Shown here piece after piece: positions 1 through 13,300 of a stretch of 24,251 nucleotides of DNA (positions are counted from its first letter, which is position 1; every line of letters begins with the position of its first letter). Made by a program: the position numbers and the translations under genes. Under the pieces are notes generated by a model. The model did not search any database and was not told the origin of the DNA. It worked only from the letters and a program-made list of their open reading frames with translations. Origin of the DNA: a virus; IMG/VR virus record IMGVR_UViG_3300024518_002892, positions 1 through 24,251 of that record. The stretch is one strand, 5' to 3'.

Positions 1-141
1 AAGGTCTACGGCGATGCGCGGGTCTACGGCGATGCGTGGGTCTCCGGCAATGCGTGGGTCTCCGGCAATGTGGAGGTCTACGGCGATGCGTGGGTCTCCG
101 GCAATGTGGAGGTCTACGGCGATGCGTGGGTCTCCGGCAAT
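1..141 (+). repeat. Tandem 36-bp / 18-bp coding repeats
   Basis: Positions 70-105 and 106-141 are identical 36-bp units, each encoding VEVYGDAWVSGN. Positions 1-69 hold degenerate 18- and 36-bp units of the same type (GTCTACGGCGATGCG and GTCTCCGGCAATGCG modules). The repeats are in frame and encode the beta-helix rungs of the partial gene. Confidence 0.9.
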
Positions 142-399
142 GCGGAGGTCTTGTGGGTCAGCCATGTCGGCAGCGAAGGCGGAACGCTGACGCTCTACCG
201 GACCAAGGACGGTGAGGCCGTCAATCGTGGGTGCTTCTCTGGGTCGCTTGATGAGTTTGCGGCTGCGGTCAAGCGCACGCACCCGGACAACCTTTACGGT
301 CGCGAGTACGCCTTGCTCATCCAGATGATGCGTCTTCGCGTCGCGTCATGGGGGCCGCGAGACTTTAGCGACACCGAAGCCAAGGGAGAGGCAGCATGA
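1..399 (+). CDS. Beta-helix repeat protein, phage type (5' partial)
   Basis: The frame is open from the first base, so the true start lies outside the window; a GTG at 70 is only an internal repeat codon. The first ~50 residues are hexapeptide-like repeats of the form V-x-G-[DN]-A (VYGDAWVSGN units), the pattern of a left-handed beta-helix. A C-terminal domain follows (TLTLYRTKDGEAV, GCFSGSLDEFAAAVKRTH, YGREYALLIQMM). This pairing of repeats and GCF.G..eEF...V..TH domain is familiar from many phage-encoded proteins of unknown function. Its position at the head of a run of small early genes suggests an accessory early protein; it ends in an ATGA overlap with the next gene. Family resemblance is recognised by eye; function is unknown. 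Confidence 0.75.
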   Translation, partial: KVYGDARVYGDAWVSGNAWVSGNVEVYGDAWVSGNVEVYGDAWVSGNAEVLWVSHVGSEGGTLTLYRTKDGEAVNRGCFSGSLDEFAAAVKRTHPDNLYGREYALLIQMMRLRVASWGPRDFSDTEAKGEAA

Positions 400-656
400 G
401 CGCCCTCCCCGCCTGTCTCTCCCCCCGTATCAGCCCTCTCACTCTCGCTGACAGGCTGGCCCATGTGATCCGCGCCCGCCTGTCAGGCCGCGACCCCCGC
501 CAGTCGGATGCCGGGCAGACGCTGCCAGTGGATCGCCTGACCCGCGTTGGCCCCGGCCTCTATGAAATGAGCGTCGATTTCGAGGGTCAGCTCTATCGGG
601 TCCGCGTCGAGCGCGAGATTGACGCCATGCGTCATGAGATCCGGGAGGCGAACTGA
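396..656 (+). CDS. Hypothetical phage protein (86 aa)
   Basis: I do not recognise this protein. ATG 396 overlaps the upstream stop as ATGA and its own TGA overlaps the next start as TGATG, which supports translation as part of the operon. The N-terminal half is rich in Leu, Arg and Pro; the C-terminal half has a short strand-like stretch (GLYEMSVDFEGQLYRVRVE) followed by a charged helix. No signal peptide, membrane segment or catalytic motif is visible. It is one of a run of small coupled early genes. Confidence 0.6.
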   Translation: MSALPACLSPRISPLTLADRLAHVIRARLSGRDPRQSDAGQTLPVDRLTRVGPGLYEMSVDFEGQLYRVRVEREIDAMRHEIREAN

Positions 657-937
657 TGGAGGTCCGCGAAGCACTTTTCGTTTCTGGCTTTCCCGTTGGC
701 GAGCATGGCGAAGACGGCGTTTTCTATCAAGTTGGGAGTGAATACTGGCGGACCGTCTCTGGCGCCCTCCAGCAATGCGGCCCTGTAACACGGATCACCG
801 TGACGGCCGACCTGCCGGGCCTTCATTGCGACATGGAGCGAGTCCGCGTGTTCGACGGTGAAACGGTCATTTTTGAAGGCCCGCTGCACAACCTTGAAGG
901 CGTCACCTATGCCGCCCCGAAAGGCGGTGACGCATGA
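656..937 (+). CDS. Hypothetical phage protein (93 aa)
   Basis: Not recognised. The start overlaps the upstream stop (TGATG at 654-658) and the stop overlaps the next start (ATGA at 934-937), so it sits in a tightly coupled operon. The protein is acidic and looks mainly beta (VTRITVTADLPG, RVRVFDGETVIFEGPLHNLEG), with two cysteines and no membrane segment. The opposite strand is open over part of the region, but the overlapping start/stop junctions favour the plus strand. Confidence 0.6.
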   Translation: MEVREALFVSGFPVGEHGEDGVFYQVGSEYWRTVSGALQQCGPVTRITVTADLPGLHCDMERVRVFDGETVIFEGPLHNLEGVTYAAPKGGDA

Positions 938-1260
938 CCCGCCGCGAGATCGATCCGTATTGGCAAGAGGCCGTCGAATGCGCGCTGGAGGAAGCCGGTG
1001 TTGCGGCAACCAAGGAGCAGGTCGCAGTTATATCCCAAGACATTGAGCGCGCTGCCGGCATGGAGAGCGAAGCGAAGGGGTATCACAACATCCCCAATCC
1101 GCTTCAATCCGAAGTCGATGCGCGGGATCGGGCATTGAAAGCTGCTGACGAAGAGCGCGAACGCCAAGTCGAGATCGCCCAGAAGGAAATCGACACCCAT
1201 TGGCGCCCGCTCGTCACCCGACTTCGTTGGGAGCTGGAAGACGCGAGGTCCGCCTCATGA
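934..1260 (+). CDS. Hypothetical phage protein with C-terminal coiled coil
   Basis: 108 residues. The N-terminal part (PYWQEAVECALEEAGV, KEQVAVISQDIERAAG) resembles a small protein common in alphaproteobacterial phages, in which an 'ALEEAG...t.eQ...ia.di' helix pair precedes a charged coiled coil. Residues ~60-100 are strongly charged and predicted coiled coil (RDRALKAADEERERQVEIA). Versions I recall often end in a CxxC zinc motif; none is seen here. ATGA overlaps exist at both ends. Function unknown. Confidence 0.65.
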   Translation: MTRREIDPYWQEAVECALEEAGVAATKEQVAVISQDIERAAGMESEAKGYHNIPNPLQSEVDARDRALKAADEERERQVEIAQKEIDTHWRPLVTRLRWELEDARSAS

Positions 1261-1370
1261 GCTGGACCGGCCCCTCCAACACCACCGTCTACCCGTCCGA
1301 CTGGATCAAAGCTGCGGCCCTGACCGCCAGCGTTTCCCCACTGATTTTTCTTCTCTGGATTGGAGGCTGA
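1257..1370 (+). CDS. Small putative membrane protein (37 aa)
   Basis: A 37-codon frame starts at an ATG that overlaps the previous stop as ATGA and ends 1 bp before the next ATG. The N-terminal half is polar (MSWTGPSNTTVYPSDWIK) and the C-terminal half is a short hydrophobic stretch (AAALTASVSPLIFLLWIGG) that could span or dip into the inner membrane. The exact junctions on both sides make it a plausible real gene. Function unknown. Confidence 0.55.
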   Translation: MSWTGPSNTTVYPSDWIKAAALTASVSPLIFLLWIGG

Positions 1371-1371
1371 C

Positions 1372-1740
1372 ATGGCTTTTCTGCCGCACCTTGAGCGCGC
1401 ATCTCATGAGCTGCGCGACGTGTTCGACCCGCTCACCGCAGCGATTGAACAGACCGCGACCGCGCGCATTCTGGGCCTGCCGACCGGCATCCCGCTGACC
1501 AGCGCCCGGCGCAACTTGGAGCGTGCGCGCGCCAAGATCAACGCCGCGCTGGACGCCCTCACGCTGGCTGCTGACGGTGCCGAGATCGAAACCCCTGATT
1601 TCGAGCTCACCCCCGCCGGATACGCGGCTATTTTCGACGCCAAGAAGGGCGCACCGCCGAAACGTGGCCCGCGCCTGATTGCCTCGAACAGCCAGCCCGT
1701 CCGGGACTATCCCGATGGCGACGGCCCGGAGGCAGCATGA
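1372..1740 (+). CDS. Hypothetical phage protein (122 aa)
   Basis: I chose ATG 1372 because GGAGG at 1362-1366 is at good distance, rather than the in-frame TTG at 1360. The protein begins MAFLPHLERASHEL and is mostly helical in its first 70 residues (two amphipathic helices, rich in Ala and Arg), then has a Pro/Lys-rich tail (KKGAPPKRGPRL). No known domain was recognised. The stop overlaps the next ATG (ATGA at 1737-1740). Confidence 0.6.
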   Translation: MAFLPHLERASHELRDVFDPLTAAIEQTATARILGLPTGIPLTSARRNLERARAKINAALDALTLAADGAEIETPDFELTPAGYAAIFDAKKGAPPKRGPRLIASNSQPVRDYPDGDGPEAA

Positions 1741-1844
1741 TGCGCCGAGGCCCCATCCTCACCCCATACGGCATGCAGGCGGTTTGCTCGCTTGTGATGG
1801 CCGTTCTCGTCCTCGCCTTCGCGGCTTTCCTCGCGCTGGCCTGA
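1737..1844 (+). CDS. Small single-span membrane protein (35 aa)
   Basis: This 35-codon frame starts in an ATGA overlap with the preceding gene. It encodes a short basic N-terminus (MMRRGPILTPYG) followed by one strong transmembrane helix (AVCSLVMAVLVLAFAAFLALA) running to the C-terminus. It is the last frame before the intrinsic terminator at 1859-1899. Tiny one-span proteins are common in phage early operons; no specific role can be assigned. Confidence 0.6.
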   Translation: MMRRGPILTPYGMQAVCSLVMAVLVLAFAAFLALA

Positions 1845-1858
1845 CCCCCTCCCCAACT

Positions 1859-1899
1859 GGGCCGGGCGCCCTGATCTCACGCGCCCGGCCCGCTTTTTT
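1859..1899 (+). terminator. Strong intrinsic terminator upstream of the ERF gene
   Basis: A perfect 11-bp GC-rich stem (1859-1869 GGGCCGGGCGC pairing with 1881-1891) with an 11-nt loop is followed two bases later by six T residues (1894-1899). The ERF gene's Shine-Dalgarno (GGAG, 1900-1903) follows immediately and its ATG is at 1912. There is no room for a promoter between terminator and gene, so expression of the recombination genes must pass through it. Confidence 0.85.
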
Positions 1900-1911
1900 G
1901 GAGACTGAATT

Positions 1912-2667
1912 ATGACCACCCACGCCCTGATCGCTGATCAGCCTGAGACGCCAGCAAGCAATTCCGCGGCGATTGTCTCGGTTATCGAGCGCGCCGCCTT
2001 GAACCCCGACGTCGATGTTTCCAAAATGGAACGCCTGCTTGATATGCAGCAGCGCATTTTGGACCGATCGGCAAAAGAGGCATTCAACGCCGACTTCGCC
2101 GCCATGCAGCCGGATCTGCCAGTCATCCCCAAGCGGGGTGCGATCAAGAACCGGGATGACAAGGTGCAGTCTACCTATGGCAAATGGGAAGACACCGACC
2201 GGCTTATCCGCCCTGTTCTTCACGGACATGGTTTTGGCCTGTCCTTCCGCACCGAGGAAGGCGACGGCTGCCTCTACGTTACAGCAGTCCTGGCGCACCG
2301 TGAGGGCCACAGCGAGCAAACAACGCTTCGCCTGCCCATTGACACGTCCGGCAGCAAGAACGTTGTGCAAGGCGTCGGCTCGTCCCTTTCCTATGGCAAG
2401 CGGTACTCTGCCGGCGCGATCCTTAATCTGATTTATCAGGACGATCCGGGCGACGATGACGGACATCTTGCCGGGCGCATTTCTGTCGAACGCATCGGAG
2501 AAAGCCATCTGGCCAATCTCCGCCGGGAAATGAAGGAGCTCAGCGTGAACGAGGCCAAGTTCTGCCGAGTTCTGCGCATTGAGGCTTTGGACGATCTGCC
2601 CGCCGAAAGGTTCGCGGATGCCGTCGATATTTTGGCGGCGCGTCGGAGGGAGCGGGCAAATGGCTGA
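1912..2667 (+). CDS. erf: ERF family single-strand DNA annealing protein
   Basis: 251 residues, the usual size of ERF-superfamily recombinases (P22 Erf-like). These proteins bind single-stranded DNA and anneal complementary strands in phage recombination and genome circularisation. Family hallmarks: STYGKWEDTD at 87-96 (the 'Y..Y.d...i.P.L...G...SF' block continues to ~112) and VVQGVGSSLSYGKRYS at 151-166, equivalent to the conserved 'QgiGSaitYarRY' motif. The C-terminal third is a charged variable region. SD GGAG lies 8 nt before the ATG. It overlaps the exonuclease gene by 8 bp, giving an annealase + exonuclease pair like lambda Bet/Exo. Expression is probably gated by the terminator directly upstream. 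Confidence 0.9.
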   Translation: MTTHALIADQPETPASNSAAIVSVIERAALNPDVDVSKMERLLDMQQRILDRSAKEAFNADFAAMQPDLPVIPKRGAIKNRDDKVQSTYGKWEDTDRLIRPVLHGHGFGLSFRTEEGDGCLYVTAVLAHREGHSEQTTLRLPIDTSGSKNVVQGVGSSLSYGKRYSAGAILNLIYQDDPGDDDGHLAGRISVERIGESHLANLRREMKELSVNEAKFCRVLRIEALDDLPAERFADAVDILAARRRERANG

Positions 2668-3289
2668 TCAACGCACAGAAGAATGGTTTGCCGAGCGCAT
2701 GGGCAAGGCTACCGGATCTCGCATTGCTGATATTGTTCGCAAGACCAAAAGCGGCCCGGCGGCATCGCGCAAGAACTATCTGGCGCAGCTCATTTGCGAG
2801 CGGCTGACCGGCTATCGCGAGGAGACCTTTCAGTCTGGCGCGATGGCTTGGGGTAACGACACCGAGCCGCAGGCACGCACGGCCTATGAGTTCTACCGCG
2901 ATGCTGAGGTGAAGGAGGTTGGCTTTATCCAGCATCCGCGCATCAACGAATCCGGCGCCAGCCCTGATGGCCTTGTGGGGAATGAAGGGCTTGTCGAAAT
3001 CAAGTGCCCGAACACGGCCACGCATTTGGAAACCCTGCGCGTCGGCCGGATTGCCCCCGACTACATCATCCAGATGCAATGGCAGATGGCCTGCACGGAT
3101 CGGAGCTGGTGCGATTTTGTATCTTTCGACCCGCGCCTTCCCGCAGCCATGCAGATGTTCTGCCAGCGCATCGAGCGCGATGACGAGCGCATCGCCGATC
3201 TGGAAAGCGAAGTCGAGGCTTTCCTCGGTGAGCTTCACGCGGCGGTTTCCGATCTTGAAGCCCGGTTTGGACAGGAGAAGGCCGCATGA
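2660..3289 (+). CDS. YqaJ/lambda-exonuclease-family viral recombinase
   Basis: 209 residues from ATG 2660, which has GGAGGG at 2645-2650; the open frame extends upstream but only as out-of-frame ERF sequence. The family degrades one strand of duplex DNA 5'-3' to make single-stranded tails for the annealase. Motifs of the PD-(D/E)xK nuclease fold are visible: RTEEWFAERMGKATGSRI at 5-22, GNDTE at 65-69, catalytic Asp103 in SPDGLVG, Glu113 and Lys115 in VEIKCP, and QMQWQM at 138-143. All core residues are present, so it should be active. The C-terminus is a short coiled coil. It is coupled to ERF by an 8-bp overlap and to the next gene by ATGA. Confidence 0.9.
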   Translation: MADQRTEEWFAERMGKATGSRIADIVRKTKSGPAASRKNYLAQLICERLTGYREETFQSGAMAWGNDTEPQARTAYEFYRDAEVKEVGFIQHPRINESGASPDGLVGNEGLVEIKCPNTATHLETLRVGRIAPDYIIQMQWQMACTDRSWCDFVSFDPRLPAAMQMFCQRIERDDERIADLESEVEAFLGELHAAVSDLEARFGQEKAA

Positions 3290-3804
3290 CCCGGCCCGTC
3301 CTCACACGCTGGACCGGCGCGGCATTTGAGCCTGCCAATTCATATCAGGCCCGCATCGCTGGCGAAGCGTATGAGGTGGGCCAGATCATCACTATGGCAC
3401 CGCAGCAAGATCGGTCCATCGCCAGCCACAACCATGCTTTCGCGTGGATTGCGGAAGCATGGGCCAGCCTGCCTGATGAGCATTCTTGCCAGCCGTGGGC
3501 CGCGACCCCGGACCACTTGCGCAAATTCGCGCTGATCCGAACCGGGTATTGCGACGTTAGGTCAATTGTCGCTGCCAGCAAGGCGGAAGCCGTCCGGGTG
3601 GCTGCATTTATCCGCGAGATTGACGAGTTTTCCTACGTCACCATCGAAGGCGCAACCGTCACCCACCTTACCGCGCAAAGCCAGTCCATGAAGGCGATGG
3701 GCAAAAAGCGCTTTGAGGAAAGCAAGCAGGCAATCCTGGAATACATCGCGGATCTGATCGGCGTAGAGCCGGGCGTGCTGATTAAGCAGGAGCGCGCCGC
3801 ATGA
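3286..3804 (+). CDS. Conserved phage protein next to recombination genes
   Basis: 172 residues, starting in an ATGA overlap with the exonuclease. The sequence resembles a protein I recall beside recombination genes in alphaproteobacterial phages: SHNHAFAWIAEAWASLPDE at ~46-64, HLRKFALIRTGYCD at ~76-89, and AQSQSMKAMGKKRFEESKQAILEYIADLIGV near the C-terminus. The blocks look well conserved but I know no biochemical function. Its placement suggests a recombination or replication accessory role, which is inference only. Confidence 0.65.
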   Translation: MTRPVLTRWTGAAFEPANSYQARIAGEAYEVGQIITMAPQQDRSIASHNHAFAWIAEAWASLPDEHSCQPWAATPDHLRKFALIRTGYCDVRSIVAASKAEAVRVAAFIREIDEFSYVTIEGATVTHLTAQSQSMKAMGKKRFEESKQAILEYIADLIGVEPGVLIKQERAA

Positions 3805-3959
3805 CCCGCCTCGACTGGATCCTGGCTGTCACCCGCCTCTGGGTCGTGTCTCCAATGACACGTGACCAGTTGATCGAAGCAAACAAGCCCCTGTTGTCGT
3901 GCCTGTCGCCTGACGAGAAGCGGATCGCATGGGATGAAATGAGGAAGGCCGGAGGATGA
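3801..3959 (+). CDS. Small hypothetical protein (52 aa)
   Basis: A 52-codon frame begins in an ATGA overlap with the upstream gene and ends in an ATGA overlap with the next one. Sequence: MTRLDWILAVTRLWVVSPMT, then a charged helix (SPDEKRIAWDEMRKAGG). It has no membrane span or known motif. The exact junctions on both sides support it as a gene; function unknown. Confidence 0.5.
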   Translation: MTRLDWILAVTRLWVVSPMTRDQLIEANKPLLSCLSPDEKRIAWDEMRKAGG

Positions 3960-4036
3960 CCAGACGCCGGGAGTTTACCCTGTGGGCCATTATCGCGCTG
4001 CTGACGGCCGCGCTCGTTCTTGGAGAACTGACATGA
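3956..4036 (+). CDS. Tiny single-span membrane protein (26 aa)
   Basis: A 26-codon frame lies between two ATGA overlaps. It has a basic N-terminus (MTRRREF) followed by a hydrophobic helix (TLWAIIALLTAALVLGELT), i.e. an inner-membrane microprotein with its basic end likely in the cytoplasm. GGAG for the following gene lies within its last codons, so it may also serve mainly as a translational-coupling leader. Function unknown. Confidence 0.45.
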   Translation: MTRRREFTLWAIIALLTAALVLGELT

Positions 4037-4416
4037 ACAAAGAACGCATCCTGGAAATCGCTGACCTGATCGAAGCCGGTCACAAAGGTATGGTGTTTGA
4101 CATGAGCACCTATGGTCACAAGCACCCTTGTGGCACTGCGGCCTGCATCGCCGGGTGGACGGTGGCCCGCTTTGACACGACTGGCCAGGCCACGAGAATC
4201 GACCACCGCCGTCCGCTGAGCGCTGACAACGTGCTTGGCTGGGCAAGGGATGCCTTGGGGTTGGAGCACGAACGCGCCTGCGACCTCTTCATCCCGACCG
4301 GCTACGAACACGGCGTGGGCGTGTTCGACATCACCGCATCTCACGCTGTCCGCGCCCTCCGTCACCTTGCTGTGACCGGTGAAGTCGATTGGTTCGCTAC
4401 TATGGAGGAGAACTGA
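4033..4416 (+). CDS. Conserved phage hypothetical, CGTAACIAGW motif
   Basis: 127 residues from ATG 4033 (ATGA overlap; GGAG at 4022-4025). A more upstream start is possible in the frame but would run through the microprotein. The protein has the motif HPCGTAACIAGW at ~31-42, with the two Cys close together; I recall this 'CGT.aCiAGW' signature from small phage and bacterial proteins of unknown function. The rest is helical with several His residues. Next gene starts 1 bp after the stop (ATG 4418). No enzymatic role is claimed. Confidence 0.6.
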   Translation: MNKERILEIADLIEAGHKGMVFDMSTYGHKHPCGTAACIAGWTVARFDTTGQATRIDHRRPLSADNVLGWARDALGLEHERACDLFIPTGYEHGVGVFDITASHAVRALRHLAVTGEVDWFATMEEN

Positions 4417-4417
4417 C

Positions 4418-4957
4418 ATGAACATCACAGAACAAGACTGCATTGATGGCCGCGAAGCCGTCCGGCGTGACGGTGAGATCGTGAAGCTGAAGGATTGGGC
4501 TGACCCCGAAGAATACCCGGTGTGGGCGAGTGACGGACGTATGCGCCGTAAGGACGGCCTCATTATCCACTGGGAGAAAAACCAAGCGGACCTTCTCTGC
4601 TGGCGCGAAGACCTCGTGCATGAAGTGCGGGGTTTCACTGTTGAAGATGCGCAGAAGGCGCTGGGCGGTAACTCCATCGGGTTGTCTGCAGGTTTCAAGT
4701 GGGGGTGTTCGCCTCAAGGCGATGACTACTGGTGCAATTTGCACGCAGCAATGCGACGCGGCAAACCCCTGCCCGACGACGCCCGCGACATCCTGCTTGC
4801 ATCCATCGCCGTCGCGAAGCGTGAGGCTGAGCCGAAGCCCGCCGAGAGACCCGAGCCGGTCAAGCAACCGTTCGTCCAGATCGTGGTCAGCGTTCCTCTG
4901 GATCGCGTGGGAGAGCTGCATGAGTTCGCGGCTGGGCTTTGTGGGGAGGGCGCGTAA
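4418..4957 (+). CDS. Hypothetical phage protein (179 aa)
   Basis: ATG 4418 is preceded by GGAGGA at 4404-4409; the longer in-frame version from 4379 would overlap the previous gene's tail. The sequence is polar with many Trp residues (DWADPEEYPVWASDGRM, HWEKNQADLLCWREDL, YWCNLHAAMRRGK). A Pro/Glu/Lys linker (~136-148) is followed by a strand-helix element (PFVQIVVSVPLDRVGELHEFAAGL). No known domain was recognised. The TAA stop overlaps the next ATG (TAATG). Confidence 0.55.
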   Translation: MNITEQDCIDGREAVRRDGEIVKLKDWADPEEYPVWASDGRMRRKDGLIIHWEKNQADLLCWREDLVHEVRGFTVEDAQKALGGNSIGLSAGFKWGCSPQGDDYWCNLHAAMRRGKPLPDDARDILLASIAVAKREAEPKPAERPEPVKQPFVQIVVSVPLDRVGELHEFAAGLCGEGA

Positions 4958-5436
4958 TGGCCGTTGAAGACGCTGTTAAGCGGGAGCGCGCAAAGCAACT
5001 TGCCGCCCAGCCTGTACCTGATGAGCTGGTGGAGGCTGTGTTGCGAGCGGCGAACCTTCTGGCCCTTTGGTGTCCGAGCGATGCGCAAGTAGAAGCCGCC
5101 CGCCTCCGCGCCGCCCTCGACGCACCACGCAAGACAGAGGCGAAGATTCGGGTGTGCCAAATGCAACGGATGAGCGCCCGAGCTTGGGGGCAGCATGAGG
5201 CGATAGCGAAGGAGCTTGGAGAAGACCCCAACCTTGCAACATCAGACGCCCGCACAGCTTGGGAATGGCTTGTCTCTCAAGGCGATGCCGCACCACTCAA
5301 GACAGAGGCGGAGATACGGGCTGATGAGCGGGATCGCCTTTTGTGCCTCGCGTTGGGTTCCGAGGAAGACGACTATTACGCCAGAGATGGCTATGTTGCG
5401 GAGTGGCTCCGCTCTCAGACGCAGGTTGAGGAATAA
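4957..5436 (+). CDS. Hypothetical phage protein with internal duplicated motif
   Basis: 159 residues from ATG 4957, which overlaps the previous TAA; GGGGAGGG at 4943-4950 is its likely SD. The protein is helical and charged. The motif AP-x-KTEAxIR occurs twice (around residues 56-65 and 112-121) and is mirrored at DNA level by a ~32-bp imperfect direct repeat. No membrane segment or catalytic motif was seen. The gene ends 3 bp before the excisionase-like gene. Function unknown. Confidence 0.55.
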   Translation: MAVEDAVKRERAKQLAAQPVPDELVEAVLRAANLLALWCPSDAQVEAARLRAALDAPRKTEAKIRVCQMQRMSARAWGQHEAIAKELGEDPNLATSDARTAWEWLVSQGDAAPLKTEAEIRADERDRLLCLALGSEEDDYYARDGYVAEWLRSQTQVEE

Positions 5437-5439
5437 CCA

Positions 5440-5775
5440 ATGGCGTCTCTGCTCACCATACAACAGGTCTGCCACCGCCTGCTGGTGGATCGAAAGACCT
5501 TGCGCGCAATCAGCGCCAGTGGTGAGCTGCCCCGCATTGTTCTGGGTCGGCGGTCGATCCGCTATGACCCGGACGATGTGAAGGCATTCGAGGAAGGTCG
5601 CAAGCAGTGGGGGTCTACAAGCGAGGGCGCGTCTACTGGTATGAGTTTTGGCAAGCGGGCATCCGACACCGCGCCTCGACCGGCTGTACGTCGAAGCGTG
5701 AGGCAGAAGACATCGAGCGCGAAGCCCGCCGCGCTGCCCGTCTGGGAACAAGCGCTCAGACACGGCTTACCGTAA
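5440..5775 (+). CDS. HTH excisionase-like protein (MerR/AlpA type)
   Basis: The first ~56 residues form a compact helix-turn-helix module: LLTIQQVCHRLLVDRKTLRAI, a turn, then ELPRIVLGRRSIRYDPDDVKAFEEG. This is the HTH_17/AlpA-like pattern (helix, recognition helix, then 'R.gr..ry...dv..fle') used by phage excisionases and directional factors. SD GAGGA at 5428-5432. Residues 57-111 overlap the integrase N-terminus in another frame (169 bp) and have poor-quality composition, so the functional part is probably only the HTH. Its position directly before int supports a role in controlling integration or excision, bending DNA at attP; this is inferred. Confidence 0.65.
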   Translation: MASLLTIQQVCHRLLVDRKTLRAISASGELPRIVLGRRSIRYDPDDVKAFEEGRKQWGSTSEGASTGMSFGKRASDTAPRPAVRRSVRQKTSSAKPAALPVWEQALRHGLP

Positions 5776-6716
5776 ACGAGGCCGCGACCGCGTGGTTTAC
5801 CGACCACGCCCGGCACCTCAAAAGCTGGCGCACCGTGGCTTTCCAGCTCCGAGTCTGTCGCCGGGTTCTCGACTTCTCCAAAGACATAGCCGAGCTTTCT
5901 ACCGCGGACATTGCCGCCGCGATTGCCGCGCGCCGGGCCGAAGAGACCCACAACAAGCGCGCCCCGGCCAATGCGACCATAAACCGTGAAATCATCGACG
6001 TGATGCGGCCGATTCACGGCTATGCCCGGCGTGTGCGCGGGTGTCAGGTTCAGGAAATCGACTGGAAGCCCGTCCGGCTTAAAGAACGCAAAAACCGGGT
6101 GCGGGAGTTCACCCCGGACGAGCAAGCCGCCGTGGTCGCGCAGCTCCTCGATCATCACCGGCTAATCTTGGCATTCTTTGCCCGCTACGGCGCGCGCATG
6201 TCGGAGGGCTGGTTTTCGCTGTCAGCCTTCAATGCGCAGACCGGGCGAATCTGGCTTCGCGACCGCAAAGATGGCGGCGACCATGTAATCAGGCTGATCG
6301 AGAGCGACCGTAAACTGATGGCAGAACGCGCCAAGCGGGCCAAAGAAGCCGGACTCGACACGGTATGGTTTCGGGAAAATCGGGAGGGGGAATTGGTGGC
6401 GATACCGCCGGCCACATTCCAGACGGCCATGAAGCGGGCCTATAAGCGCGCGGGCATCACCGACGCCAGGGCGGTCCATGACTGGCGCCACCATGCCGCC
6501 ACGGCCTTCGTCAGAGCAACCGGCGATTTACGCGCGGCACAGCACCTTCTTGGGCACAGCCAGATTGCCATGACCGGACGCTATGCGCACCCGGAAGAGA
6601 GCGCCGTTACCGACGCGCTGGAGGCTATGGCCGCTGCAGCGACTACCCACAAAATCACCCACAGCAAGGGCGATGGGGAGGCAGGCGAGCGCGACGGCAA
6701 CCCCGGAAAAGACTGA
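5607..6716 (+). CDS. int: Tyrosine site-specific recombinase (phage integrase)
   Basis: 369 residues from GTG 5607, with GAGGAAGG at 5591-5598. The N-terminus (MGVYKRGRVYWYEFW) is the usual short beta-strand arm-binding-like start of phage integrases, followed by a helical core-binding domain (~50-165). The catalytic domain shows Arg197 (YGARMSEGW), Lys221 (DRKDGG), His291 and Arg294 (VHDWRHH), His317 (LLGHSQ) and the nucleophile Tyr326 (TGRYAH); all are present, so it should be active. It catalyses integration and excision at attP/attB. The C-terminal ~40 residues are a polar tail whose DNA contains one 19-bp arm-type repeat. The attachment core, a tRNA-His half, begins 16 bp after the stop codon. 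Confidence 0.95.
   Translation: MGVYKRGRVYWYEFWQAGIRHRASTGCTSKREAEDIEREARRAARLGTSAQTRLTVNEAATAWFTDHARHLKSWRTVAFQLRVCRRVLDFSKDIAELSTADIAAAIAARRAEETHNKRAPANATINREIIDVMRPIHGYARRVRGCQVQEIDWKPVRLKERKNRVREFTPDEQAAVVAQLLDHHRLILAFFARYGARMSEGWFSLSAFNAQTGRIWLRDRKDGGDHVIRLIESDRKLMAERAKRAKEAGLDTVWFRENREGELVAIPPATFQTAMKRAYKRAGITDARAVHDWRHHAATAFVRATGDLRAAQHLLGHSQIAMTGRYAHPEESAVTDALEAMAAAATTHKITHSKGDGEAGERDGNPGKD
6646..6664 (+). repeat. Left arm-type direct repeat (integrase arm candidate)
   Basis: The 19-bp sequence CCCACAAAATCACCCACAG lies inside the 3' end of int and recurs perfectly, in the same orientation, at 6912-6930. The two copies flank the tRNA-His core. Each contains two CCCACA hexamers 12 bp apart. 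Best read as integrase arm-binding sites. Confidence 0.6.
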
Positions 6717-6732
6717 TTATAAAGGGGGAAAA

Positions 6733-6783
6733 TGGTACCGCCTTCCCGGATTGAACGGGAGACCTCTAGATCCACAATCTAGG
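6733..6783 (-). other. attP: attP core: 3' half of tRNA-His (GTG)
   Basis: Read on the minus strand this is the 3' half of a tRNA-His gene: anticodon stem CTAGA/TCTAG (6782-6778, 6770-6766) around loop TTGTGGA with anticodon GTG, variable loop AGGTC, T arm TCCCG-TTCAATC-CGGGA (6760-6744), acceptor 3' strand AGGCGGT, discriminator A (6736) and CCA (6735-6733). No D arm or 5' acceptor strand (ACCGCCT) precedes it, so it is not a functional tRNA gene. Position just downstream of int marks it as the attachment site. A73 in tRNA-His fits an alphaproteobacterial host. Confidence 0.85.
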
Positions 6784-6911
6784 CAGCAGAGCGGAGAAAA
6801 TCGGCCTTCACGCCCTGCTATAAAGGGCTGAACGCCTGAAATAGCGGGCCATGCGCATCAGCCAAAAAGGGCGGTTTGGGGCGGAACGTTCGCGGAACAC
6901 CGCAGAAAGTC

Positions 6912-6930
6912 CCCACAAAATCACCCACAG
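6912..6930 (+). repeat. Right arm-type direct repeat (integrase arm candidate)
   Basis: Second perfect copy of the 19-bp repeat found at 6646-6664, same orientation, 128 bp to the right of the tRNA-His core. It lies in non-coding DNA, which argues against coding constraint as the reason for the match. Confidence 0.6.
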
Positions 6931-7054
6931 TGCGCTTGCTCGGAAACCCCTGTCCGGTTATCCCTGACACAGCCCATAACCAGCAATCAAAGGCCGGTTA
7001 ACTTGCGCCACATCGCGCGCCGCCGGGCATAGCGCCACTGCTTGAGGCGGTTGA

Positions 7055-8842
7055 TCAGGCGGCGGAACACTGGCGCACACCCTCCGACCGATCCGCTCGC
7101 CATTGCAGCCCGCGCATGATCATCATTGTCCGCTTGCCGCCGAGATAGGTGGCCACCAGAGCGCGCGACCACGAGGACGGGCCAGAGTTATAGCCCATAT
7201 CCAGATCGTCCAGTGTGCCGGCTGTAACGCCGGTTTGCCAGCAGCCTTCAAATATTCCGGCGCTGTGGCTGTGGCCTATCGTGGATTTGCTACCTGTTTT
7301 CGCAATAGAGCGAGCCGAGCCGCGCGACCCGTTGGGGCCTTTGTCGCCATGCAGCCCGCATTCAATCCCCTCGACCTGCCATGACTGGTCCGGTTGCAGG
7401 AAGACGGCCGCCCCCGGCGCCCCCATTTCCCGACAAGCCCATTCCAGCAAATGGAAGCCGTTATCTTTGTCCTCGATCGCGCCAAGCATCCGCTCGGCAC
7501 AGCGCAGATAGAAGCGCGCGTTGACCGGATCTGACTTCCAGTCGGAATCCGTGACCCAGCGCCGCAAATGGTCATCATGGTTCGAGGCGATGACGACGGT
7601 TTGAAGCCAGTCACGATGGCAGTATTTCAGGAAGTCGGCATCGGCCCGCACTTCGTCCAGCACGCTATCCTTGCCCGCCTGTCGAAGCTGGAACAGCTTG
7701 AACGGATCGCGGGCGTTGTGGTGCGAGCGTGAGAGGTGGTCGTGCAGATCATGGAGGTGCAGCTCTGCAGGGCGCAAAACATCAACCATGCCGCCGGGAC
7801 CGAAAAGCGTTGACCTGATGGATTGGTCAAGCTGGGCAACGTGGATGTCACCAGGGGTCAGCGCCGCGATATTGTTTGCCGGTCGAACCCGTCCACCACG
7901 CACGGTCAAGCCGATGTCATTGCAGGTTCCGTCTTCACCCGCGATGATATGGCGGGGCCACCACCGGCCAGCGCTGTCTACTTCGACCAGCATGGCCCCG
8001 TAGGTGTGGTGGTGGTCGGCTTTCTGGCCGGTCTTGGTCTCGGTATAATTGCGCTGGGTGACGGCGCCGGTCGTAAACAGCAGCTTGGCCGGTTCAGCGC
8101 GCATCGTGGCGACTGACCGCATTTCAACCTTGGTGGAAGCAAATATGCCAGAGGCCCGACCGGTGAAGGTGTCATATCCAGAAAGCGGGGTTGCCGCGGT
8201 GGCCGTGATCGGCGCATCGCCGGCAAAATGACAATCCGGCGCCAGAGCCACGCGGTCGGTGGACAGATAGGGCCTGACAGCAGGGTCAAACCATATCTCG
8301 TCACCCTCTGCGCTAGCGTCCTCGGTGTCAGCGCCCATGCGGCGGTAAGCGTTCAAATTGTAGTGAATAGGCCGCACGATGATTTCTGCATCATAGTGCC
8401 GGGCCAGCGCCTGCAGATTGCGCCAGAAGGCCGGGTGAATATGGGTATTATTCACGGCCCCGGTGATCAGATAGGTGGCCACCTCGTTCGGGCCGGGCAG
8501 CGCACGCGCTTGCGCCTCACGAGGGTCGATGCGTCCATCCGCGATGGGCCGGGCGTCCTCTTCGTCGAGCAATCCGTCTTCCACCGCGATTTTGCGGCGG
8601 CGCTGCTCTGCCATGCTGTCGGGGTCGCGCTGGCCCGCGGCACGATTGACAGGCGGATCCGGGATTTCGACACCCTGACGGCGGGCCAGATCGCGCCGGT
8701 AGCGCATAGAGCTGTCTGTGTACTCGACCCCGTGCTTGTCATAGATCAGCCGGGCCGCAGCCGCGACCGCGCCATTACACTCGAGCAGGGCCTCAACAGC
8801 CATGTCCTGAGTGATTTTTTGGAGGTTCGAGCCGCGCGGCAT
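7055..8842 (-). CDS. HTH + calcineurin-like metallophosphoesterase-type phage protein (T5 A1-like?)
   Basis: 595 residues, last clear gene of the late operon. The N-terminal ~55 residues look like a small DNA-binding helix-turn-helix (ITQDMAVEALLECNGAVAAAARLI then SSMRYRRDLARRQG-type helices). The second half carries, in order, motifs expected of calcineurin-like metallophosphoesterases: D332-x-H334 (GDIHVAQLD), D365/D368 (LHDLHDHL), N421-H422-D423 (ASNHDDHL), H498 (LHGD) and H524-x-H526 (GHSHSAG). This set coordinates two metal ions in phosphoesterases and Mre11-type nucleases. The protein resembles the T5 A1-type family of large phage proteins; that assignment is from memory and uncertain. 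A nuclease or DNA-processing role is inferred. It starts 8 bp after the Rz1 stop. Confidence 0.7.
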   Translation of the reverse strand: MPRGSNLQKITQDMAVEALLECNGAVAAAARLIYDKHGVEYTDSSMRYRRDLARRQGVEIPDPPVNRAAGQRDPDSMAEQRRRKIAVEDGLLDEEDARPIADGRIDPREAQARALPGPNEVATYLITGAVNNTHIHPAFWRNLQALARHYDAEIIVRPIHYNLNAYRRMGADTEDASAEGDEIWFDPAVRPYLSTDRVALAPDCHFAGDAPITATAATPLSGYDTFTGRASGIFASTKVEMRSVATMRAEPAKLLFTTGAVTQRNYTETKTGQKADHHHTYGAMLVEVDSAGRWWPRHIIAGEDGTCNDIGLTVRGGRVRPANNIAALTPGDIHVAQLDQSIRSTLFGPGGMVDVLRPAELHLHDLHDHLSRSHHNARDPFKLFQLRQAGKDSVLDEVRADADFLKYCHRDWLQTVVIASNHDDHLRRWVTDSDWKSDPVNARFYLRCAERMLGAIEDKDNGFHLLEWACREMGAPGAAVFLQPDQSWQVEGIECGLHGDKGPNGSRGSARSIAKTGSKSTIGHSHSAGIFEGCWQTGVTAGTLDDLDMGYNSGPSSWSRALVATYLGGKRTMMIMRGLQWRADRSEGVRQCSAA

Positions 8843-8850
8843 AGGCGGAT

Positions 8851-9120
8851 CTACTCGCTGTCCTGGCTGGCGACCAGATCAGCCACGTCTGCCAAGGTGT
8901 CCCGGCAATCGCGCCATGCGTCCTCGCCTCGCAGCATGAACACGGCTAGATCCACATCGCTTGCGGTGTCCGGGTCCGGCTCGACCGGGAAGTCAGCGCA
9001 GCTCAGGAGGGACGGCGGAATCACCAGCGGCGGGCGTATCACCCGCTCGACGGTCCCGCAGGATGCCAAGAGCGCCGCGCACAGCGGGGCTAGAAGCGCA
9101 TTCGTAAGTTTCCGGCGCAT
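8851..9120 (-). CDS. Rz1-like outer-membrane spanin lipoprotein
   Basis: 89 residues with a classic lipoprotein signal: basic MRRK, a hydrophobic stretch, and lipobox LLASC with Cys21 as the lipidation site. A proline motif follows (RPPLVIPPSLLSCADFP), typical of o-spanins of the Rz1/LysC type. The start lies inside the Rz gene in a different frame (128-bp overlap), the common overlapping spanin arrangement. With the i-spanin it would fuse inner and outer membranes at the last step of lysis. The C-terminal ~40 residues are acidic and longer than in lambda Rz1. Confidence 0.85.
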   Translation of the reverse strand: MRRKLTNALLAPLCAALLASCGTVERVIRPPLVIPPSLLSCADFPVEPDPDTASDVDLAVFMLRGEDAWRDCRDTLADVADLVASQDSE

Positions 9121-9370
9121 CTCTTACGGTCTCCTCGTCTTGGCGCTGTGTGGCGGTCTGTGCCGCCCGGTCGCGCGCTCTCGCTTCGGCCGCATCCAGA
9201 GCGGCCCGTGTGCGGGTGATTTCGGCTTCTGCTTTTGCGGTGGCGTCGAGGGCGTCGGCAAGGTCTTCGCGAGCAGATACCCAGCGAGAGCAAAAAAAAG
9301 CCGCCGCGATAAACAGCACCACGACAGCCCCCATCATTGCCTTGCCCCAAACGCTTGCCAGAAAACCCAT
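8993..9370 (-). CDS. Rz-like inner-membrane spanin
   Basis: 125 residues from ATG 9370, which overlaps the endolysin stop as TGATG; an in-frame GTG at 9382 is an alternative. One N-terminal transmembrane helix (MMGAVVVLFIAAAFFCSRW) is followed by a periplasmic coiled coil rich in Ala, Glu and Arg (EDLADALDATAKAEAEITRT). This is the i-spanin architecture. The Rz1-like gene starts within it. Together with holin and endolysin it forms the lysis cassette. Confidence 0.85.
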   Translation of the reverse strand: MGFLASVWGKAMMGAVVVLFIAAAFFCSRWVSAREDLADALDATAKAEAEITRTRAALDAAEARARDRAAQTATQRQDEETVRDAPETYECASSPAVRGALGILRDRRAGDTPAAGDSAVPPELR

Positions 9371-9807
9371 CACAGCCCCCACCGCACAGGCGAGCCCGGC
9401 CCGCCCTCTTGCGTCTTGACCTCACGGCGCAAGCGCGGGTCAAAGCTGATATGCGTGATGCCCCGGTTAGGCTCATGAATAAGCTGATCAAATGTGAGCA
9501 CGCTTTTTTCGATGGCTTGGCAGACCTCCAGCGGCGTCATTTCAGGATGCGCAAAATCGGCCGCATGACCCAAAGCGTGCGCGCTGGTCGAAACGCCACC
9601 CACGGCCCTGTTGACGAGCGGCGAGCGATAGCCTGACGTGATTTCCAGCGGCTGGTCGCCAAGAAGCCGGCGCACCTGCTCGAGACCGATTGCCAGCGCC
9701 TTGATGTTGGCCAGATGCTCCGGCTCTGGAATGTTCGACAGCCCACGCCGGGCGGCGGTCGCGGACTTGGTGAACTCTGGCAGGGTGAAGTGCTTACTGA
9801 TCCGCAT
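9370..9807 (-). CDS. Endolysin, peptidase M15 family
   Basis: 145 residues matching the M15 (Peptidase_M15_3) zinc peptidases that cleave peptidoglycan stem peptides. The zinc motif S-x-H-x-x-G-x-A-x-D is perfect at 75-84 (SAHALGHAAD: His77, Asp84) and the third ligand is His119 in THISFD. It begins MRISKHFTLPEF, the usual 'hFtl.Ef' N-terminus, and SGYRSPLVN at 58-66 is also typical. It has no signal peptide, so release depends on the holin. It overlaps the holin gene by 14 bp and the Rz gene by TGATG. Confidence 0.92.
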   Translation of the reverse strand: MRISKHFTLPEFTKSATAARRGLSNIPEPEHLANIKALAIGLEQVRRLLGDQPLEITSGYRSPLVNRAVGGVSTSAHALGHAADFAHPEMTPLEVCQAIEKSVLTFDQLIHEPNRGITHISFDPRLRREVKTQEGGPGSPVRWGL

Positions 9808-10018
9808 CGGCCCGCCCCTTCCAGATCCGCAGCCACTCGGTCAACTGGCCTTTGTCGATGATGCCGCGCATGAAGTAGAGCGCGCCACCGGCCACCAGCA
9901 GAGCGACCAGAGCGGCCACCGCGCCTTCCGGCGGAACCTTGCTCGTCACCCATAGAAGGCAGACGATAACCGCAGCGCTGAATAGCGGGCGCTGCCAGGT
10001 GCGGGCCTGATCAATCAT
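9794..10018 (-). CDS. Putative holin (two transmembrane helices)
   Basis: 74 residues from ATG 10018; the longer open frame upstream is out-of-frame sequence of the preceding gene. It has two hydrophobic helices (PLFSAAVIVCLLWVT and GAVAALVALLVAGGALYFM) separated by a short turn, and a charged C-terminus (RIWKGRADADQ), the layout of a class II-like holin. It lies directly before the endolysin (14-bp overlap) and after another small membrane protein (8-bp overlap). Assignment rests on topology and context. Confidence 0.7.
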   Translation of the reverse strand: MIDQARTWQRPLFSAAVIVCLLWVTSKVPPEGAVAALVALLVAGGALYFMRGIIDKGQLTEWLRIWKGRADADQ

Positions 10019-10292
10019 TGGGGCGCTCCTGTCTGCGTTCGATGCGGTTGATGGCCTCGACCATGAAAACCGTTCGCTCGTCCATCCGGCCAACCGTTTC
10101 CTGCATGGATGTGAAGCTAGCCGAATTGCGGATCGCCAGAGCTTCGACGCGCGCAATGTCGCGGTCTTGCTCCTCGTTTTTGGCCTGCATGAGAAACCAC
10201 TGCCCCACAAGGCCGGAGCAGATCGCCACGGTCGTCAAGATGTGGCCGACTGTGACTTCTCGTTTCACTGTCCAATGGTTTTGGTCAGCCAT
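10011..10292 (-). CDS. Membrane-anchored coiled-coil protein of the lysis region
   Basis: 93 residues: a cytoplasmic start (MADQNHWTVKREVTVG), one transmembrane helix (HILTTVAICSGLVGQWFLM) and a long charged coiled coil (EEQDRDIARVEALAI..., MDERTVFMVEAINRIERRQE). Such one-span coiled-coil proteins are frequent next to phage holins and may be an accessory or second holin; the role is not established here. It is the first gene after the terminator at 10313-10333, with AAAGGA as SD, and overlaps the holin gene by 8 bp. Confidence 0.65.
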   Translation of the reverse strand: MADQNHWTVKREVTVGHILTTVAICSGLVGQWFLMQAKNEEQDRDIARVEALAIRNSASFTSMQETVGRMDERTVFMVEAINRIERRQERPND

Positions 10293-10312
10293 CGGGGTTC
10301 CTTTCGGGCATG

Positions 10313-10333
10313 AAAAAGCCGCCCGGAGGCGGC
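10313..10333 (-). terminator. Intrinsic terminator between tail-tip and lysis genes
   Basis: Read leftward, GCCGCC-TCCG-GGCGGC forms a 6-bp GC stem with a stable UUCG-like tetraloop position, followed at once by TTTTT (10317-10313). It sits 5 bp after the J-like gene's stop codon and 21 bp before the next start, so transcription into the lysis genes must read through it or be re-initiated in a very short gap. Confidence 0.75.
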
Positions 10334-10338
10334 GCGAT

Positions 10339-13300
10339 TTACGGAGAGATAAGGACCGACATTTGCGTGCCGGTTCCGCCCAGCAAAATCTGGTCGGTCG
10401 TTGCTGCTGTCAGCTTGAGCAGGAGGCAGACGTGGGCTGTGCCTTCGTATGCGGTTGGTATGCGATAATCGACCCCGCCGCTAACGCCCTGCTGCTTCAC
10501 AAAGCCGCTCGACCCGTCAGCATTTAGCACCACATTCGCCCCATCAAGCTGGAAAGTAATGGTGCGCCCGTCCTGAATGATGTTTTCGGTTCCGGTGCCA
10601 ATCCAGGCATCGCCCGGCGCGCGCGAAGCGTCCACGATGCCAATGGCCCACTCCCCGACCACCGCTGCGTCAGTGGCTTCATTTGGCGACTGGAAATTGA
10701 TCGTGATGTCGGTGACTTGCAGAACGTCCAGCTCTTTAAGACCCGGCGCCTCAATCGCAACAACCACTTTGTACGCCGTCCCGCTAAACCCGGTATCTGA
10801 ACCAAGATTGTCTTGGAGGAGCTGGCGAGAAATGCGGCGAATGTTCGTGCCGTCGTCGTACCAGATCACGTCGTTTGTGGTGTCATTGTAGATTCGGCGC
10901 GCCGTGGCAGTCGGAACACCCGCACCCTCTTGAACGAAGGCCCGGTTGGCGGCGACCTTGTCATCATCAACTGAGTTATTTGCGAGCTTGGCGGTGGACA
11001 CCACGCCATCAGAGAGAAGCCCGGCACTGTCAATTGTGGCTTTCAAAGCCAGCGCGCCAAGGCCGGTCACTTGTGCGTTAGGGACATTTGTTTGCAGCAC
11101 GCCCGACGCATTAAGGGCCGTGCTGATGCGGCCGTCTGTCAGTTCGGTCGGAATGCTGGCGACGTTGCTTCCCCACGTCGCGCCGAGCGTCGCATTCGGC
11201 TCAGGCCGGTTGCCGTCATCATCAGCAACGCCGGACCAGCCGACCGAGGTGGCCCCGCCAACCGTCCAGGTCGAAGAAACCGTCACGTCAGCCCAGCTCG
11301 TCCAGCTTCCACCGCCGTAAACGTCTTCAGCCCGCGCCCGGACATTGTAGGTAGCCCCGCCGATCAGGCCGGCTACGGCTTTGGCCGTTTCGTCCGCCTC
11401 CACATAGAGCGTGGTGACATTGGTTGTTCCGTCCAGCCGGTATTGCACCGCAATCGAGCGCGTGCGCTGCAGATCATCGCCGGACAGAGCATCCCATGAA
11501 GCCGAAAAGCCCGGCAAAGCAAAGCTGCCCGCGGTCTGCGATGTCGAGGAAACCGCAAAGCTCGTCAGGGCCACGGCGCCCGTGGCGTCCACGCTGACCG
11601 GGATAATCTGGGCTTGTCCCCAAACGCCCCCATCGGAGCCATACCGCACGCGGACGTAATAGCTATTTCCCGCAATGGCCTGAATAGTCCGGCCGCGCGC
11701 CGCTTCGCCTCGGCTCAAAACCGTCTGGTCTGAAAACTCGGAATCTGTGGTTTTGCGAATGTCGATGGCCACTAGGCTTGCGCTTGCCGGAACACCGGCA
11801 GTCGGGGCCGTGACTGTCACCACGGGCCGGGCGTAGCCCTCTGCGCTGGCCTGCGTGGATCCGGCAGCAGTCCAGCCGCTTGGGGCCGCAATCGCCGCGC
11901 CACCCTGTTCGACCGCCGTTTCCAGCGTAAGCCAGTCCGAAGCGATATAGAACGAGCTGCGGTATCGAATGCGGATTGAATAGCCCCGCGCGCGCTCGAC
12001 GTTGGGGATGCGATAGCCGTTCAGGGCTTGAGCGCGCGAAAGGGTTGCGAGCGGGATATAGTCGCTATCGCCGGCAACGGACCCGCTTTCGCTGGAAAAC
12101 TGACCGCCAAGAAAATCGAGGCCAAGGCTTGCGCCCGCCTGTCGCTGATATTCGATTTCGACCGAGAAAACCGAAGCATCAATGCTGCCCGGAGCCGAAA
12201 TATTGAGGACAGACTGAACCGCGCCTTGCGGGCCGCTGACCTCTGTTGCCGTCACACTCCAGCCGGTCGGGGTCGCCGTGGTCGGAGCCGTTGCCGCCGC
12301 GACCGTGCCGGCGGGCGGGTCTTGCTCCTCGCTTGCGGCGGTCCAAGCATATTTGCTGTCAGTCTCGGAGCGGGCGGTGATGTCCACCGAGCCGTCAGGA
12401 TTGATCTTGCGCGCAATGACGCGATATTTTCCGTTTGCCGCGGAGCCATAGCTGTCGCTGTCGAGCGTGAAGACCTCGCCTTCCTGTATCTGGATAGCCT
12501 TGATCTTGTAACGCGCGGAAATTTCGCGAGGCTCGCGCTTGTTGCCGCCGTGTATCTTGGCCAGGCGCTGGGCGACCCGGTGGTCATCCGTGAACGGCAA
12601 GCGCAGCTCGGCCCACAAAACCTCGCCATCGTCCTCAGTTTCCCAAGTCGAATTGCGATAGGCCGGCGCTCCCGCGAAATTATAGCCCGCTGAGGGTTCG
12701 CGATACTGGACCGATACCGCGTTGGCCGTTTCCCGAATTGAGCGGGCGCCGGTCACGCGGATCGGCCCGGCCAAATCGTCGTCAGTCAGGGTGACGGTTG
12801 CGGTTTGAGCCTCGCCCGCATAGATCGAGATCAGGCCAGAGCGCGTGGTCAAAACGCCGGCTATAGCCGACATTATCGCCTCAAGCACTGCAATCGGATC
12901 GTCAGCCGCTGAGACAATTCCGCCGCCGCCAGTATAGCGCGCAATTGTGCCGCCTGCCTTCACCGCGACCGTCTCATCACACACGTCTGCAGCGTCAGCA
13001 AAGCTCTGCCAGTCGATCAGGGCATCCGGCACACCGAGCCCAAGAACGCGCGTCCCGTTCGTCTCAACGCCCCGGATGTAGTCAAGCGCCCACAAAGCCG
13101 GGTTTTGGCTCCATGCGATATACGAGGCATTTGTCGGGTCATTGCCGGGCGAGCTGTCGAGGCGCGGGTCATAAACCTGCCGACCGCGCATGATGAACAG
13201 AGGCGAAGGAATGCCGCTGGTCCAGACTTCCGGGTCGTACTCATAGCGTAGATGAGCCAGCGCAACGCCCTTCCCCGCATGCGCACTGGTCCAGTCGCTG

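Follow-up and report, generated by a model that had tools for sequence, protein, structure and literature searches.

What would a temperate phage do with a protein that combines a helix-turn-helix (HTH) with the motifs of a two-metal phosphoesterase and is encoded between the lysis genes and the attachment site? The question is raised by a 595-aa protein (P0001) encoded in the 24,251-base virus record IMGVR_UViG_3300024518_002892, the whole of which was analyzed and is referred to here as the window.

The gene lies between the spanin genes and attP

The reading frame called in the initial annotation is real; it starts with an ATG located 8 nt past the stop codon of the gene for the Rz1-like o-spanin, and a plus-strand reading of the same stretch is interrupted by stops (Table 1). 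The window phage looks like a temperate siphovirus, with genes for a CII-like activator, an O-like initiator, DnaB, TerS/TerL, portal, scaffold, a P22-type coat protein, tape measure, Dit, and a tail fibre as well as Erf and a RecE-type exonuclease. Downstream of the tail genes, the order is endolysin, Rz/Rz1, the gene for P0001, attP, and a convergent tyrosine integrase gene, confirming the initially described location after the spanins and next to attP. A second record (G001; 36,314 bases) carries the same phage, with 100% identity over positions 45 to 12000 of the window. We note that positions 1 to 151 of the window contain 18-bp tandem repeats (~8 copies) within an open frame, which encode YGDA/SGNA-type hexapeptide-like repeats, and that G001 has a diverged copy (88%) of these repeats at its other end.

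Table 1. Features of the lysis-attP region, in window coordinates
Feature	Position	Strand	Basis
Tyrosine integrase, convergent with the A1 gene	5607..6716	+	PF00589, 66.8 bits; phrog_1, E 1.1e-31
attP core, 50-bp copy of the tRNA-His(GTG) 3' half	6733..6782	-	46/50 identical to the intact tRNA-His in L179
A1-family protein (P0001), 595 aa, ATG start	8842..7055	-	phrog_1745, E 2.4e-152; AlphaFold; motif conservation
C-terminal MPE domain of P0001	7088..7891	-	Ligand conservation; A1 HMM versus phrog_221-type MPEs; Foldseek to phage MPEs
Conserved alpha/beta domain of P0001 (aa 112-316), which may be a catalytically inactive MPE-like fold	7895..8509	-	Separate model and Foldseek
Helix-turn-helix of P0001 (aa 12-55)	8678..8809	-	AlphaFold helices; HTH_8 in L016; N-terminal HMM
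Rz1-like o-spanin	8851..9120	-	phrog_456, E 1.4e-8, and sequence
Rz-like i-spanin, one hydrophobic segment, no family match	9090..9491	-	Position and hydrophobic segment
Endolysin, peptidase type	9370..9807	-	phrog_894, E 3.6e-33

P0001 is a homologue of T5 A1 with a conserved metal site

The profile search that the initial annotation had called for matched residues 91 to 582 of P0001 to positions 60 to 541 (of 542) of the PHROGs profile phrog_1745 ("DNA transfer protein"), and tblastn detected relatives in 1123 phage records, T5-like phages included. Since this membership is by sequence, P0001 is a homologue of T5 A1; the earlier naming of T5 A1 as the closest analogue is correct in that A1 is the closest known protein but understates the relationship. 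P0001 and T5-like A1 are homologous over the conserved middle and the metallophosphoesterase (MPE) domains (33-34% identity) and share the same eight metal-site positions. In a phylogenetic tree, P0001 pairs with the protein of L016 (support 99), and this pair is joined by L018/L019 (98) and then by the nearest larger clade, that of RcCronus and Rhodobacterales prophages (89). The RcCronus protein is 44% identical to P0001; members of this clade also have an HTH, and their genes are located at the end of the tail module. An SSB gene follows in RcCronus and some relatives, and RcCronus has RepA/ParA-type genes. In a search of genome contigs, P0001 as a single query gave 0 matches, and an alignment query gave 68 loci.

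The initial annotation had listed ordered DxH, D, NHD, H, and GHxH motifs. These are present as D332-x-H334, D365, N421-H422-D423, H498, and H524-x-H526, i.e., all eight ligand/catalytic residues of the five motifs of the calcineurin-like MPE superfamily (D332, H334, D365, N421, H422, H498, H524, and H526) are found in P0001. Among 109 relatives with 26-54% identity, 12 columns are invariant, and seven of these correspond to D332, H334, D365, N421, H422, H498, and H526, while H524 is kept in 105/109 and D423 in 95/109. As judged from this alignment, conservation of the predicted ligands is far beyond chance. The phrog_1745 motifs GDxH, HDxxD, SNHD, HG(D/H)xGxNG, GHxH, and GPSSW-type all occur in P0001. 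We also observed substitutions in the middle domain of P0001 at three positions that are nearly invariant in the family (Q130 to V, P214 to A, and H236 to S).

Searches with P0001 gave no match in Pfam, Metallophos included, or among PDB sequences. Because Pfam finds nothing, it matters that motifs I-III of phrog_221-type MPEs align in register with an A1-family HMM (GDiH/GDTH, HDvldf/GDMGDF, and SNHd/GNHE; E 7.5e-8 in a set of ~30). The GHxH motif of P0001 also gave a local profile match with SbcD (p 8.6e-4; controls >=0.2); hhalign comparisons with CpdA and with T5-like D12 gave no signal. P0001 shares a predicted two-metal MPE site with SbcD/Mre11; however, we found no full-length sequence or fold match to these nucleases and saw no SbcC/Rad50 partner gene beside the A1 gene in the late operon, which together place P0001 outside the Mre11/SbcD group.

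We note that the family and fold assignment is already known. T5 A1 orthologues have been placed in the calcineurin-like superfamily as phosphodiesterases (PMC7824862), so that the kind of protein, initially put forward as a candidate for an undescribed function, was already described.

The predicted structure contains an HTH, a middle domain, and an MPE domain

AlphaFold modeled P0001 with a pLDDT of 92.1 and a pTM of 0.83 as an HTH, a low-confidence linker, an alpha/beta domain (approximately aa 112-316), and an MPE domain (aa 318-585). The initial annotation had proposed comparisons with Mre11/T5 A1 and calcineurin folds. Using Foldseek against viral models (BFVD), the full-length model matched A1 and phage MPE proteins (E 1e-7 to 1e-4 for the MPEs). 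Matches of the full-length model in the PDB were weak (best E 0.03) and led by MPE folds, namely DNA polymerase delta p50, MPPED2, acid sphingomyelinase, and purple acid phosphatase; no Mre11 was among the top 50. The fold and profile matches agree with a predicted MPE site in P0001.

The middle domain, which has no metal motifs, gave a pLDDT of 94.3 when folded alone, and its top Foldseek matches were Vps29, DNA polymerase delta p50, and Mre11, all of which are MPE folds (E ~1e-3 to 0.2; TM ~0.3-0.45). These matches hint at a possible tandem of one dead and one live MPE domain; a profile-profile comparison of the two halves gave no support for an internal MPE duplication (p 0.46, inside the shuffled controls).

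The HTH-like segment noted initially is modeled as three helices (aa 12-21, 26-37, and 43-55; pLDDT 92-96). On its own, the N-terminus of P0001 is weak (E 0.1 with the HTH model); the L016 protein, which is 52% identical to P0001, scores above the Pfam HTH_8 cut-off, whereas no Pfam HTH is recognised in T5-like A1. An N-terminal HMM built from few members matched the N-termini of 71/161 family proteins, seed members counted in. By these sequence comparisons, the HTH appears to be common but not universal in the A1 family.

A1 genes occupy different places in different phages

T5 A1 is encoded in the pre-early, first-step-transfer DNA in the terminal repeat, whereas the gene for P0001 belongs to a temperate, integrase-encoding phage and follows its lysis genes. 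Location varies in the family and, hence, a pre-early terminal-repeat location is not family-defining. A1 genes are found at the end of a GTA-like tail module in RcCronus and Rhodobacterales contigs, between coat and tail genes in Nanhaivirus, between the genes for DnaB helicase and ligase/polymerase in Autographiviridae, after a cell-wall hydrolase gene and before the ribonucleotide reductase gene in RcSimone-Hastad and RcRudolph, and in the first-step region in T5. The initial annotation regarded the place of the gene as outside the standard order. Instead, it recurs: A1 of Rhodobacter-type phages, Nanhaivirus, and others is located within a late module or closes it. A "unique position" of the window A1 was likewise rejected by this neighbourhood survey, in which A1 often follows tail or lysis genes.

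A small gene encoding a hydrophobic segment was present at most 2 kb upstream of A1 in 42/126 loci compared to 23/341 for other large genes; the p-value of 5e-12 overstates the case because the loci are related and not independent. Among the upstream small membrane genes tested, two were spanin-like (L112 and L132). In seven loci (L023, L024, L025, L038, L041, L075, and L078), the gene directly before A1 encodes a small membrane protein that may be a holin, and in the two that were tested (L023 and L041), this protein is phrog_6420/DUF6127-like. An integrase gene was found in 11/50 A1-bearing virus contigs, many of which are fragments. We also observed A1 relatives on contigs binned as Woesearchaeota, Nanoarchaeota, and Pacearchaeota (L140, L144, L150, and L157) and on contigs of candidate-phylum bacteria, all of which possibly represent viruses of these groups.

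Other phosphoesterases replace A1 between Rz1 and attP

A search with the attP sequence identified L173, which has 85-92% DNA identity to the window phage over the tail fibre gene, pieces of Rz/Rz1, attP, and the integrase gene. No A1 was found in L173. Instead, the slot between Rz1 and attP holds a gene for a 365-aa MPE (phrog_221, E 1e-29; Pfam Metallophos above cut-off), which has no BLAST similarity to P0001, is shorter, and is without the A1 middle domain. A phrog_221-type MPE occupies the slot in L173/L182 and in L185, the latter of which also carries a convergent integrase gene and RecE/Erf, and, in L184, L185, and L186, the same Rz1 is followed by relatives of the L173 MPE. Altogether, an A1 or a phrog_221-type MPE is encoded behind Rz1 in 5/5 loci of this Rz1 family. 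L173 additionally has a gene (L173:3085-3702) between Rz and Rz1 for a 205-aa endonuclease VII/HNH-like protein (phrog_1035, E 1.5e-12), and none is present in the window phage.

A survey based on the integrase gave A1 in L214 (the same phage) and L221 (identical to L016) and a phrog_221-type MPE in L215 (identical to L173) and L223 (identical to L185). In L222, with the order endolysin, spanin-like gene, MPE, and integrase, we found a third HTH+MPE protein, which matches the A1 HTH model (i-E 9e-12), has MPE motifs, and is 38-40% identical to annotated phage phosphoesterases. Yet another HTH+MPE protein is encoded on the other side of the lysis genes in L224; its N-terminus resembles that of the L173 MPE (33%, E 2.6e-6), and the remainder has no significant BLAST match. 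The MPE assignment of both proteins is motif-based and, for L222, is backed by the annotated phosphoesterase matches. In the more distant integrase relatives L225-L228, L230, and L232, there was no MPE match in the corresponding place and, therefore, the slot rule is limited to the nearer group. Thus, three MPE families (A1, phrog_221-type, and the third HTH+MPE family of L222) occur in one place. That one MPE family can stand in for another at a constant location points to selection that keeps phosphoesterase activity rather than one particular gene, with the counts being small.

P0001 may be a late DNase acting on host DNA

T5 A1 is an essential protein with pleiotropic mutants known since the 1960s. 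A1 is essential for host DNA degradation (PMC13250531, PMC8541194), is needed for second-step DNA transfer (PMC13250531), and has been called a putative DNase (PMC7232257); nuclease activity had not been reported (PMC8541194), and our search of open-licence papers found none for purified A1. Gp48, a cluster A MPE encoded by an early gene of mycobacteriophage A10ZJ24, digests DNA in vitro, be it linear, plasmid, or genomic, and also fragments the genome of the host; active-site mutants do neither (PMC12287305). The L173 MPE is weakly similar (E 7e-6) to cluster A mycobacteriophage MPEs. Thus, with the T5 A1 data taken into account, each of two slot occupants has a relative that is connected with the breakdown of host DNA.

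The requirement of T5 A1 for host DNA breakdown and the in vitro DNA degradation by Gp48, a weak relative of the phrog_221-type replacement, lead us to favor the reading that P0001 is a late, DNA-tethered DNase acting on host DNA, and we hold this reading to be evenly poised between right and wrong. P0001 would be an HTH-tethered, two-metal phosphodiesterase of the T5 A1 family, the metal probably being Mn2+. Going by gene order, its synthesis would follow that of the lysis proteins from the late transcript and would thus be confined to the lytic cycle, with no expression in the lysogen. Double-stranded DNA would be nicked or resected by the C-terminal MPE site, positioned on it by the HTH together with the conserved middle domain. 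The likeliest use would be breakdown of the host chromosome late in infection, which would supply nucleotides and end host expression or repair before lysis. In favor of this reading are the kinship with T5 A1, the MPE ligands, the HTH, the place directly after Rz1, the MPE swap, and the excess of small membrane genes upstream of A1. Against it are the lack of a reported nuclease activity for T5 A1, the pre-early timing of T5 A1 versus the late position of the window A1, by which the roles may differ, the full-length model without a close solved relative, and the weakness of the window HTH in Pfam. Moreover, many MPEs act on small molecules or proteins.

Small-molecule substrates are at the core of one alternative, according to which P0001 is an anti-defence phosphodiesterase that hydrolyzes cyclic-nucleotide or similar alarm signals of host immunity, with the HTH being merely regulatory or a scaffold. 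Iyer and colleagues predicted such an activity for T5 A1 orthologues and suggested nucleotide signals as targets (PMC7824862), and the slot content varies, as it does with defence-related cargo. However, expression from the end of the late operon would be late for counter-defence, a slot shared by several HTH+MPE families suggests DNA as the substrate, and the Gp48 and T5 A1 data favor DNA; we consider an anti-defence role unlikely, if worth weighing. It is quite unlikely that P0001 trims or resolves the phage's own replication, recombination, or packaging intermediates, as recombination and terminase genes lie at a distance from the window A1 and L185, a relative with the same Erf/RecE genes, has another MPE, even though A1 neighbors the DnaB helicase and ligase/polymerase genes in Autographiviridae, the window phage itself has Erf and a RecE-type exonuclease, and L173 has the endonuclease VII-like gene in its lysis region.

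There is a slim chance that P0001 is made late because it is packaged and then ejected to act at DNA entry, as the name "DNA transfer protein" suggests. The requirement of T5 A1 for second-step transfer and the location between coat and tail genes in Nanhaivirus relatives would fit this idea, but T5 A1 is synthesized once the first-step DNA has entered, the window A1 follows spanin rather than structural genes, and our literature search found no virion proteomics. Very little credence is given to a transcription shut-off by binding of host RNA polymerase with a secondary phosphoesterase, since the metal site is conserved across all branches and unrelated MPEs replace A1, although T5 A1 binds RNA polymerase and this role has been proposed for the A1 proteins of KASIA and phiCbK (PMC8541194, PMC3556154).

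Returning to the host-DNA nuclease, we found no description of a late A1 gene in a temperate phage or of an interchangeable HTH+MPE slot in the open-licence papers searched. We tentatively suggest, with the balance leaning against it, that a set of temperate phages keeps a dedicated lysis-attP slot for a late HTH+MPE DNase, with at least three MPE families (A1, phrog_221-type, and S-CRES/S-CBS2-like) as alternating occupants, in which the HTH head is shared and the catalytic part exchanged. If true, the slot would be a lysis-linked module for destruction of the host genome, not described before, and would put a name to end-of-cycle DNases as a class in temperate phages. With a late A1-family gene whose slot other MPEs can occupy, the enzyme is uncoupled from DNA entry and its function can be probed by gene swaps.
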